64,000 nt of DNA, from positions 1 to 64,000 of the forward strand of contig QKED01000005.1 of the NCBI GenBank assembly GCA_003252455.1, given 5' to 3'. Below are positions 18,258 to 29,965 of this stretch, one piece after another. The position numbers and the translations under genes are program-made. Positions within the stretch are counted from its first letter, which is position 1. Each line of letters starts with the position of its first letter. Below the pieces are notes generated by a model, which searched no databases, was not told where the DNA came from, and was given only the letters and a program-made list of their open reading frames with translations. Origin of the DNA: Gammaproteobacteria bacterium. Its GTDB lineage: Bacteria > Pseudomonadota > Gammaproteobacteria > Thiohalomonadales > Thiohalomonadaceae.

Positions 18258-19568
18258 TCAGGCAGTACCAAACTTGGTCTCCACCTCGACGCCGATCTTT
18301 TTCAGGAACGGCGTCGGGAGCAGGCCACCGGCGGAGACGATGATGGCGTCGTTGGCCAGCGTCTCGCTCTGCCCCTCGCCGAGGTCGATCTCAACAGTGT
18401 CAGCGGTGATGCGCGTGACGTTGGAGTTGAAGATGACCCGCAGCCGACCTGCGGCGACTGCGGCGTCGATACGTTCGCGATTCTTCGGTTTGGCCCGAGA
18501 GAAGGCGCCGGAGCGGTAGGAGAGGGTGACGCTGGTGCCGTTCTCGTCGCTCACCGCCAGGGCCGCCTCCAGCGCGCTGTCGCCGCCGCCCACCACCAGC
18601 ACCCGCTGGCCGGCGTACTGCGCCGGGTCGATGAGGCGGTAGACCACCTTGGGCAGCTCCTCGCCGGGGACGCCGAGGGTGCGCGGGGTGCCGCGTCGAC
18701 CGATGGCCAGGAGCACGGCGCGGGTGCGGTATTCACCCTGCTGGGTGGTGACGAGGAAGCCGTCGCCGCTCTGTTGTATATGCTCGACGCGCTCGTTGAA
18801 GCGCACCTGGAGCCCGGTCTTGTCGACCACCGAGTGCCAGAACGCGAGCAGCGCCTCCTTGGTGGTCTCGGTGAACTTCACCTTGCCGACCATGGGCAGC
18901 TGCACCGGCGCGGTCATGACGATCTTGCCGCGTGGGTAGTGCGCCACGGTGCCGCCGAAGCTCTCCTGCTCCAGGGTGACGAAGCGCAGTTTGTGCTGCA
19001 TCGCGGCGAGAGAGGCGGAGAAACCAGCGGGCCCGGCGCCGATCACCACCAGGTCGAGCCCCTCGCCCTGGCCGATGCCGTCGAGCCTTCTGATCGCCTC
19101 CAGCGCCTGGCGCCCCTGTTCGATGGCGTTGCGGATGAGCCCCATGCCGCCCAGCTCCCCGGCGATGAAGATGCCGGGGACGTTGGTCTGAAAGTCGGGG
19201 CTGACCTGGGGGATGTCGACCCCGCGTCGGGCGCTGCCGAAGACCAGGGTGATGGCGTCGCGGTGGCAGGCGGCGGCGCAGGCGCCGTGGCCGATGCAGT
19301 GGCTCGGGTCGACCACCACCGCCTTGCCATCGATCATCCCCAGCACCTTCCCCTCCGGGCAGGCGCTGACGCAGCTGCCGGTGCCGATGCAGCGCGCCGG
19401 GTCGATCACCGGGTGCAGCGACATCGGCTCGGTGAGGCCCGCCGCTTGGCTCTCGGCGAGGGTGTCGCGGGCGCGCCGCTCGCGCGCGCCGCGCCAGGCG
19501 AAGTAGCCGACCCAGATGAGCAGCAGGGGGGTGAAGTAGAGCAGGTCTTGGTAGGGGGCGAGGTCCAT
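18258..19568 (-). CDS. Membrane-anchored ferredoxin/FAD-NAD(P) oxidoreductase
   Basis: This 436-residue protein has an N-terminal transmembrane anchor (LLYFTPLLLIWVGYFAW, 9-25), a 2x[Fe-S] ferredoxin segment (60-105) and a thioredoxin-reductase-like FAD/NAD(P) module. FAD-binding VIGAGPAGFSA lies at about 174-184 and NAD(P)-binding VVGGGDSALEAALA at about 325. The ferredoxin motifs are unusual: CIGTGSCVSACPEG (C60, C66, C70) and CIGHGACAAACHRD (C91, C97, C101). Each lacks the second Cys of CxxCxxCxxxCP, so [3Fe-4S] or altered clusters are possible. It would exchange electrons between NAD(P)H or ferredoxin and a membrane partner. It is divergent from the cytochrome locus by about 190 bases, which suggests that it feeds or drains that conduit. 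Confidence 0.85.
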   Translation of the reverse strand: MDLAPYQDLLYFTPLLLIWVGYFAWRGARERRARDTLAESQAAGLTEPMSLHPVIDPARCIGTGSCVSACPEGKVLGMIDGKAVVVDPSHCIGHGACAAACHRDAITLVFGSARRGVDIPQVSPDFQTNVPGIFIAGELGGMGLIRNAIEQGRQALEAIRRLDGIGQGEGLDLVVIGAGPAGFSASLAAMQHKLRFVTLEQESFGGTVAHYPRGKIVMTAPVQLPMVGKVKFTETTKEALLAFWHSVVDKTGLQVRFNERVEHIQQSGDGFLVTTQQGEYRTRAVLLAIGRRGTPRTLGVPGEELPKVVYRLIDPAQYAGQRVLVVGGGDSALEAALAVSDENGTSVTLSYRSGAFSRAKPKNRERIDAAVAAGRLRVIFNSNVTRITADTVEIDLGEGQSETLANDAIIVSAGGLLPTPFLKKIGVEVETKFGTA

Positions 19569-19758
19569 GGGGCGCTCCGCGCGGGTTCGTCGTGGCCCTA
19601 CTCTACGCGATGGGGGCTGAACCCACTCTTAACGCGGCGAAGGAAAAATGTCTTGAAATTCAATGGTGAGAAAACGCACCAGGGGATTTAAGTCGGAGTT
19701 AACTTAGCGGGCATAGGCTAACGCCGTAGAGATTACTCAGATTTGGGGGGAGCTGCCC
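19569..19758. other. Divergent promoter region of the electron-transfer locus
   Basis: This 190-base region separates the FAD oxidoreductase (minus) from the cytochrome run (plus). AT-rich islands TGTCTTGAAATTCAATG (about 19650) and GGATTTAAG...GTTAACTTAG (19681-19705) may hold promoters, but no consensus -35/-10 pair stands out. A strong ribosome binding site GGGGGGAG (19745-19752) precedes the plus-strand gene. Confidence 0.45.
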
Positions 19759-29500: not shown

Positions 29501-29965
29501 ATGGGGACGGGCCACATCACCACCACCGCGAGCTGCGACAACTGCCATACCACCCTCGCCTGGCTCCCCGCGCGCTTTGACCACGCCCTGGTGAGTGGTC
29601 GCTGCGACGGTTGCCACAACGGCGTGGGCGCCACCGGCAAGGGCGCATCGCACATGCTCACCGCCATCGACTGTGCCGAGTGCCACCGGGTGGGGGCCTG
29701 GAGTCCGTCGAGCTTCCGCCATCAGGGTGCCAACTACCCAGGCGATCACGCAGGTAGCCCGGCCTGCCGCGCCTGCCACACCGGCAATAGCGACAGTATC
29801 CCCTGGCGCTTCCCCGCCTACGCACCGGACTGCGCCGCCTGCCACGCGGCCGACTACAAGCCCGGCGAGCATCGCAACGCCTCGGTGAGTAGCCTGCGCG
29901 ACTGCTCGGGCAGTTGTCACCGCCCCGGCCCAGAGCACCGCGCGGGTGATCGGGATTGGGACTGA
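26501..29965 (+). CDS. Giant 48-haem c-type cytochrome of tandem di-haem modules
   Basis: This 1154-residue exported protein has signal peptide MPMRHWMPLVLLILALMSRESVA. By-eye count gives 47 CxxCH plus one CxxxCH (CSGSCH at the C-terminus), that is 48 haem sites, about one per 24 residues. The chain is some 22-24 modules of 46 residues (138 bp): C-A-[ST]-CHNG-T-Q-A-[TS]-GK-x(4)-H-[IL]-PTSAAC-DDCH-x(3)-GW-[ST]-PA-[RQ]-FDH-x-G-V. Two non-haem histidines per module allow bis-His ligation throughout. Six modules near the middle are almost identical in DNA. N- and C-terminal domains match the 24-haem paralogue. It likely forms an extracellular or outer-surface haem wire fed through the barrel. ATG 26507 is an alternative start. 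Confidence 0.93.
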   Translation: MPMRHWMPLVLLILALMSRESVALPAAFEAQRFDHMTTGFTLEGAHRALDCASCHMAGRFQGTPRACATCHRASGNGRMPADHVATSGDCSACHNSQSWAVVAQVDHAQLSGACSSCHNGQRTSGLPPQHIPVQQECSSCHRTRSWRSARFVHLSGGECRVCHNGVAATGKGAAHLPTGEVCDDCHRTRAWHPARVDHAAVSAACASCHDGQRASGRHATHIPTQAACDECHTSSGWSPARFTHASVTEGCSRCHNGVQASGKGATHITTDAACDTCHTPRGWSPAQFDHANTTAACASCHNGTQASGKGATHIPTETACDACHTTRGWSPARFDHSGVTTACATCHNGIQATGKAADHLATAEPCDLCHTSTAWSPARVDHTRVSGACASCHNGTQASGKGAQHIPTSAACDDCHQTSGWSPAQFDHAGVSAPCASCHNGVQATGRAATHLPTSTTCDDCHTPQAWSPARFDHASVSGACVECHNGVQASGKPTTHVPTSATCDSCHGTRGWTPARFDHGGVSAGCATCHNGVQASGRSRTHLASLGVCELCHTSTAWSPAGFDHTAAIGSCASCHNGTQATGKTTTHLPTSAACDDCHTISGWTPAHFDHSGVTTACATCHNGTQATGKTTTHLPTSAACDDCHTISGWTPARFDHSGVTTACASCHNGTQATGKGAAHLPTSTACDDCHTISGWTPARFDHRGVTTACASCHNGTQATGKTTTHLPTSAACDDCHVISGWTPARFDHSGVTTACASCHNGTQATGKTTTHLPTSAACDDCHTISGWTPAHFDHSGVTTACASCHNGIQARGKSALHIPTSAACDDCHTTISSSWTPARFDHTAVSTSCASCHNNAIVVGKGSGHIATSGACDACHGTSGWVPAQVDHAWVSGSCASCHNGTTAQGRPAAHIATSLLCEACHSRQSWTPASVDHAEVSGSCANCHNGSTAQGRASNHINSSALCDDCHLTSDWLPARVDHAQVIGNCLTCHNGAVATGMGTGHITTTASCDNCHTTLAWLPARFDHALVSGRCDGCHNGVGATGKGASHMLTAIDCAECHRVGAWSPSSFRHQGANYPGDHAGSPACRACHTGNSDSIPWRFPAYAPDCAACHAADYKPGEHRNASVSSLRDCSGSCHRPGPEHRAGDRDWD
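28231..28960 (+). repeat. Six 138-bp tandem repeats inside the giant cytochrome gene
   Basis: The string CAACGGCACCCA (last copy CAACGGTATCCA) starts at 28231, 28369, 28507, 28645, 28783 and 28921, exactly 138 bases apart, and intervening DNA is nearly identical. Each unit encodes one di-haem module, so the array keeps frame when units are gained or lost. This is the signature of recent slippage or unequal recombination. Confidence 0.92.

Follow-up and report, generated by a model that had tools for sequence, protein, structure and literature searches.

A putative PCC3-type porin-cytochrome locus with 93 haem motifs, and a conserved ferredoxin/FAD protein as its likely cytoplasmic partner

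The six genes at 18258-29965 of the 64,000-nucleotide stretch of DNA analysed here (the window) probably form a complete gene set for a trans-envelope porin-cytochrome conduit of the PCC3 type, a reading to which we assign a probability of roughly 0.7. One of the six, transcribed divergently from the others, encodes a ferredoxin/FAD (Fd/FAD) protein that, to judge by sequence comparison, is quite likely to be the cytoplasmic redox partner of the conduit. PCC3 is widespread and tends to be catalogued as a putative iron oxidase; the literature searched yielded no biochemistry for any PCC3.

The locus is laid out as follows:

18258-19568, minus strand: Fd/FAD protein, 436 aa, divergently transcribed
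19569..19758, no strand: divergent intergenic region of 190 bp, presumed from the sequence to hold the promoters of both transcription units
19759-20613, plus strand: PCC3-type inner membrane protein (IMP), 284 aa, predicted di-haem b
20632-22278, plus strand: periplasmic-type (P-type) cytochrome, 21-haem, 548 aa, 21 CXXCH, Cytochrome_C7 matches
22294-24129, plus strand: extracellular-type (E-type) cytochrome, 24-haem, 611 aa, 23 CXXCH + 1 CX3CH
24133-26472, plus strand: outer-membrane beta-barrel protein, barrel at about residues 352-778 in an AF2 model
26501-29965, plus strand: E-type cytochrome, 48-haem, 1154 aa, 47 CXXCH + 1 CX3CH

All six open reading frames are intact at the coordinates of the preliminary description, whose gene list (an Fd/FAD protein, a b-type-like membrane protein, cytochromes with 21, 24, and 48 haems, and a barrel between the largest two) can be retained. 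The five plus-strand genes, from the IMP to the 48-haem cytochrome, are separated by gaps of 18, 15, 3, and 28 bp, and there is no plus-strand terminator-like site in any of the four; a search of the 190-bp divergent region for a sigma70-like site found none. A downstream IalB-like gene (30046-30537) was left out of the locus because it is absent from the matched neighbours in relatives. At 15957-17921, a gene for a 654-aa predicted exported protein with Sel1 and many ankyrin repeats adjoins the cluster.

Membership of PCC3 is very likely on the published hallmarks. The first hallmark is the IMP, roughly 300 aa long and bearing two HX13H motifs plus SGXXG, the signature given by He et al. 2017 (PMC5566968). 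The window's IMP (P0002; 284 aa) carries the HX13H pairs H85/H99 and H263/H277, invariant in 37/37 homologues, and S122-G123-x-x-G126, whose S and G residues are likewise invariant in the 37. The second is a periplasmic cytochrome (median 21 haems) beside the IMP; here one with 21 CXXCH lies 18 bp downstream, and the P-type cytochrome comes after the IMP in nearly all relatives. The remaining hallmarks are a many-haem extracellular-type cytochrome with 22-39 aa per haem, matched by values of 25.5 in the 24-haem and 24.0 in the 48-haem protein, and a many-strand porin by the cytochromes, for which the model predicts 22 strands.

Compared with PCC3 as described by He et al. (PMC5566968), in Gallionellaceae (PMC10734462), and in Leptothrix (PMC13386937), the locus has the same gene order, IMP motifs, and 21-haem P-type cytochrome, together with a large barrel and an E-type cytochrome that is bigger than the P-type, of low complexity, and packed at 24-26 aa per haem, and its 93 haems fall inside the published and sampled range. 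It differs in having two E-type cytochromes (24 and 48 haems) flanking the barrel in place of a single one, and in its linked Fd/FAD gene, which is absent from the PCC3 descriptions searched. An extra extracellular cytochrome beside the PCC3 porin is on record in Leptothrix (PMC13386937). The mention of PCC3 in the preliminary description points to the right family, and the trans-envelope conduit that it proposed is well supported by the gene families, the conserved order, the invariant histidines, and the barrel model.

MtrCAB, MtoAB, and PioAB also span the outer membrane with a barrel and multihaem cytochromes, but the window's barrel protein (P0005) has no match to the MtrB/PioB families PF11854 and TIGR03509 at E ≤ 0.1. 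Against TIGR03508 (MtrA/DmsE decahaem), the 48-haem protein reaches 189 bits, summed over repeats and below the cut-off of 192.2, and the others score lower. PCC4, which lacks an extracellular cytochrome and combines a porin with periplasmic ones that hold 4, 5, and 10 haems, does not correspond to a set of 21, 24, and 48 haems. An MtrCAB-type set is present in the host genome elsewhere than in the window (L112:5182-10651, on G000:C58), with an MtrB/PioB barrel, a DmsE/MtrA decahaem, and an OmcA/MtrC decahaem, all above family cut-offs. The gene for CcmF (c-type maturation) is also present.

In the AF2 model of P0005 (mean pLDDT 86), the predicted 22-strand barrel spans residues 352-778 and is preceded by beta, SPOR-like, and TPR regions; the best PDB alignments are large outer-membrane barrels, e.g., TonB-dependent receptors, with Z of 17-19. 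Its gene sits between the 24- and 48-haem E-type genes. This E-barrel-E order is also found in one other genome, G729, and the idea that it is unique to the window was dropped for that reason. The order of the gene families is more widely conserved: nearly all strong IMP loci, in dozens of genomes, run from the IMP to the P-type and then to the E-type cytochrome(s) with a barrel.

The IMP itself has no Pfam match at E ≤ 0.1 and no NCBIfam match. Its AF2 model has a mean pLDDT of 88, and because a Foldseek search of this model against the PDB returned no match at E ≤ 0.001, it is the motifs that argue for a haem-b fold. Structure comparison returned rows of helical bundles, including a weak match to cytochrome b561 (4o6y; Z 7.1, 129 residues, rmsd 3.2). 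A strongly basic helical stretch lies between hydrophobic helices four and five. Under the positive-inside rule, basic stretches face the cytoplasm, which would place H85 and H263 near the cytoplasm and H99 and H277 near the periplasm. Elsewhere in the host genome (L046:6480-7226, on G000:C92), an 8-haem cytochrome gene adjoins a short IMP-like gene, a pair that perhaps belongs to the porin-less IMP group of He et al.

When both motif types are counted, the locus holds exactly 93 haem motifs (91 CXXCH + 2 CX3CH), in agreement with the approximate figure given previously. At the level of sequence, a density of 24-26 aa per haem is beyond chance. The 21-, 24-, and 48-haem cytochromes contain 42, 48, and 96 cysteines, that is, two per haem, and 25, 26, and 54 histidines outside the haem motifs; with at least one spare per haem, there are enough for a second axial ligand on every haem. 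In the 48-haem protein, the repeating unit is 46 aa long and carries two haems; the gene correspondingly consists of 138-bp tandem units that are up to 96% identical. As the longest exact repeat in the gene is only 79 bp, a large miscount through assembly collapse or expansion was judged unlikely, although the assembly is in 118 contigs and the exact haem number deserves confirmation. This protein had no phmmer matches among PDB sequences. No lipobox was seen in the 24- and 48-haem proteins; they are presumably surface-located, given the published labels and their adjacency to the barrel.

The 24- and 48-haem proteins have a common C-terminal cap and cluster together in the cap tree, which hints at an in-place duplication. 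The same cap grouping occurs among the multiple E-type proteins of G053 and two of those of G055, which hints that duplication of this kind may well have happened more than once. These E-type trees contain few sequences, and the grouping of the window's two proteins is not reproduced when the N-terminal region is used.

Haem number varies very differently along the conduit. Complete P-type homologues (n = 35) have 21 haems in 26 cases, 24 in seven, and 18 in two, always multiples of three; complete E-type homologues have 16-144, with an even number in 27/33. The P-type cytochrome would be a nearly fixed-length periplasmic wire and the E-type a freely varying outer wire, and together they offer a natural series in which the effect of wire length could be tested. 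Might the cytochromes instead serve mainly as an electron store (a capacitor), as raised in PMC10734462? A length that is not fixed over 16-144 haems would suit such a store, but the retention of a barrel and of a P-type cytochrome so often of 21 haems fits bridging, and we consider the capacitor improbable as the main role; the two roles are not mutually exclusive.

The preliminary description had also held that 93 haems and a 48-haem member are far beyond the usual. This could not be upheld, and the idea that the total is unprecedented was rejected on both literature values and larger sampled loci. For the extracellular cytochrome of PCC3, the median in He et al. 2017 (PMC5566968) is 34 haems, with examples of 63 and 85, and among the loci sampled here the window's locus ranks fourth, after G231 (168), G055 (at least 156), and G053 (115). 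In G231 (G231:C17, L082:7022-19237), a single 4071-aa E-type frame has 133 CXXCH + 11 CX3-4CH, or 144 haems, which exceeds the published maximum of 85 in He et al. 2017 (PMC5566968), and it adjoins a 24-haem P-type cytochrome and a PCC3 IMP. The window's locus is large for PCC3 but not record-setting.

The strongest pattern among genomes concerns the Fd/FAD protein and the IMP. With the IMP as bait, matches were obtained in 23/95 near relatives (threshold 1e-3) and in 41/369 genomes of the class (threshold 1e-20); a scan of genome contigs with the IMP query gave one relative only. In the near relatives, both proteins score highly in the same 14/14 genomes. In the class sample, 40 genomes have both, two have the Fd/FAD protein alone, and one has the IMP alone (Fisher p about 5e-50, a value that ignores the shared ancestry of the genomes); one of the two genomes with Fd/FAD alone holds a fragment and the other is a 72%-complete genome. 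A phylum-wide draw (n = 398) again found both high-scoring in the same six genomes, one of them outside the class and two already counted in the class sample. The genes are usually close together as well: among 46 IMP loci, Fd/FAD lies within 3 kb of the IMP in 36 (35 of these divergent), on the same contig within 11 kb in 40 (four more than the 36), and on a different contig in five, some of which may be assembly breaks. In G105, the contig includes the DNA neighbouring the IMP without an Fd/FAD gene, and the pair is therefore retained there without linkage.

The pairing extends to another phylum. Plasmid pEMTOL02 of Emticicia oligotrophica (Bacteroidota) carries a PCC3-like cluster with Fd/FAD (L107:5031-16829), in which genes for CcsA/ResB, the IMP, the Fd/FAD protein, 23-haem and 40-haem cytochromes, and a 538-aa protein follow one another in one direction. 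The 538-aa protein has no family match and is probably the barrel. A tblastn search of plasmids with the window's IMP gave no match, and the divergent Emticicia IMP (28% identity, with both HX13H motifs) was found later beside Fd/FAD (47% identity). We take this co-occurrence to indicate a functional link, which falls short of proof of direct electron transfer, and the Fd/FAD protein is probably a component that descriptions of the PCC3 family as a whole have lacked. It is not mentioned as a PCC3 partner in the literature searched, which was mostly open-access papers.

The Fd/FAD protein (P0001) starts with a transmembrane helix that has basic residues just behind it, and continues with two ferredoxin-type [Fe-S] motifs and an FAD/NAD(P)H domain (Pfam Fer4_10 and Pyr_redox_3). 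It is the most conserved member of the locus, with a mean column identity of 61% versus 34% for the IMP and 29% for the barrel. In the first ferredoxin motif, Thr63 replaces the second cysteine, which is Cys in 26/31 aligned homologues; in the second motif, H94 takes the place of the second cysteine in 31/31. One should keep in mind that the flavin domain most resembles YpdA/TrxR disulphide reductases (PDB matches to YpdA, TrxR, and FNR are restricted to residues 172-436) and that a cytochrome c assembly gene, CcsA/ResB, heads the Emticicia cluster. Both would suit a device for assembly or redox homeostasis in which P0001 and the IMP keep the many cysteines or haem irons of the giant cytochromes reduced while these mature, off the electron path. 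P0001, however, has only six cysteines, all within its ferredoxin motifs, which rules out an active-site disulphide and argues that it is not a disulphide reductase, and the IMP has a di-haem b signature, not a CcdA/DsbD-like thiol pathway; such a device is therefore highly improbable. In G053 (L034:15407-17032), the Fd/FAD gene is in two pieces with an in-frame TGA, and the 115-haem PCC3 cluster is intact.

As a partner on the electron path, the membrane-anchored cytoplasmic Fd/FAD protein would link the IMP to NAD(P)H or to a ferredoxin by electron exchange, passing electrons from the donor to FAD, to Fe-S, and on to haem b of the IMP. Within the IMP, the two b haems would lie one above the other in the inner membrane and hand the electrons from the cytoplasmic-side to the periplasmic-side haem. 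The 21-haem cytochrome, a wire long enough for the periplasm, would receive them there; the last stretch, through and beyond the outer membrane to an extracellular acceptor, would fall to the barrel together with the 24-haem cytochrome, the 48-haem one, or both. We tentatively propose that PCC3 may be a five-part machine in which the Fd/FAD protein and the IMP act jointly as a transmembrane reductase, NOX-like but split in two, that bypasses quinones and supplies a giant multihaem wire leading out of the cell with electrons from NADPH or ferredoxin. As in NADPH oxidases and ferric reductases (FRD), two HX13H motifs would make a two-haem transmembrane wire served by a cytoplasmic FAD/NAD(P)H protein. 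The window's IMP differs from these in having no PF01794 match at E ≤ 0.1, the role of dehydrogenase would fall to a TrxR-like protein of its own that carries Fe-S clusters, and the electron exit would be a c-type multihaem wire. Against this mechanism, the Fd/FAD gene is mostly on a separate, divergent transcript.

In which direction would electrons move? The preliminary description allowed either, and direction, like substrate, is still something that we infer; the choice has been narrowed slightly, as a strictly associated cytoplasmic Fd/FAD protein leaves a model of uptake through quinones alone incomplete. He et al. (PMC5566968) proposed that electrons go from the PCC3 IMP into the quinone pool, and PCC3 could accordingly oxidise a donor outside the cell (Fe(II), minerals, or some other), with the Fd/FAD protein as an accessory. 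PCC3 occurs in iron oxidisers, and the host genome's two RuBisCO large-subunit genes (G000:C26:64504-65430 and G000:C79:22673-23566), which suggest autotrophic potential, fit a metal-active lithotroph, as does the separate MtrCAB set. Such uptake, however, leaves the near-perfect association of Fd/FAD with the IMP unexplained, and electrons moving inward to NAD(P)H would have to run against both the redox gradient and the membrane potential, so that export is the more natural direction if the Fd/FAD protein is on the path. Expression data from Sideroxydans lithotrophicus ES-1, where PCC3 genes are not induced by Fe(II) and are lower on Fe(II) (PMC8788666), and where PCC3 proteins are low or undetected on magnetite, do not point to PCC3 as an Fe(II) oxidase in that organism. 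Uptake appears the less likely reading.

We give outward flow about an even chance. The partner kept most strictly is a flavo-iron-sulphur protein of the cytoplasm, and for this reason the net flow would more often be outward, either to reduce an acceptor outside the cell or to get rid of excess reductant. The coincidence of Fd/FAD and IMP in the class, in the phylum, and on a Bacteroidota plasmid suggests that electrons enter from the cytoplasm, through a link to NAD(P)H or ferredoxin, and that the conduit does more than deliver electrons from Fe(II) to quinones; this would probably mean export.

For those who search genomes for PCC3, the Fd/FAD gene would be a better marker than the fast-changing cytochromes. 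Its recognition as a partner turns the electron entry point and the likely direction of flow into a testable hypothesis and, if the split NOX-like reductase is real, PCC3 would be mainly a device for electron export and not an Fe(II) oxidase.
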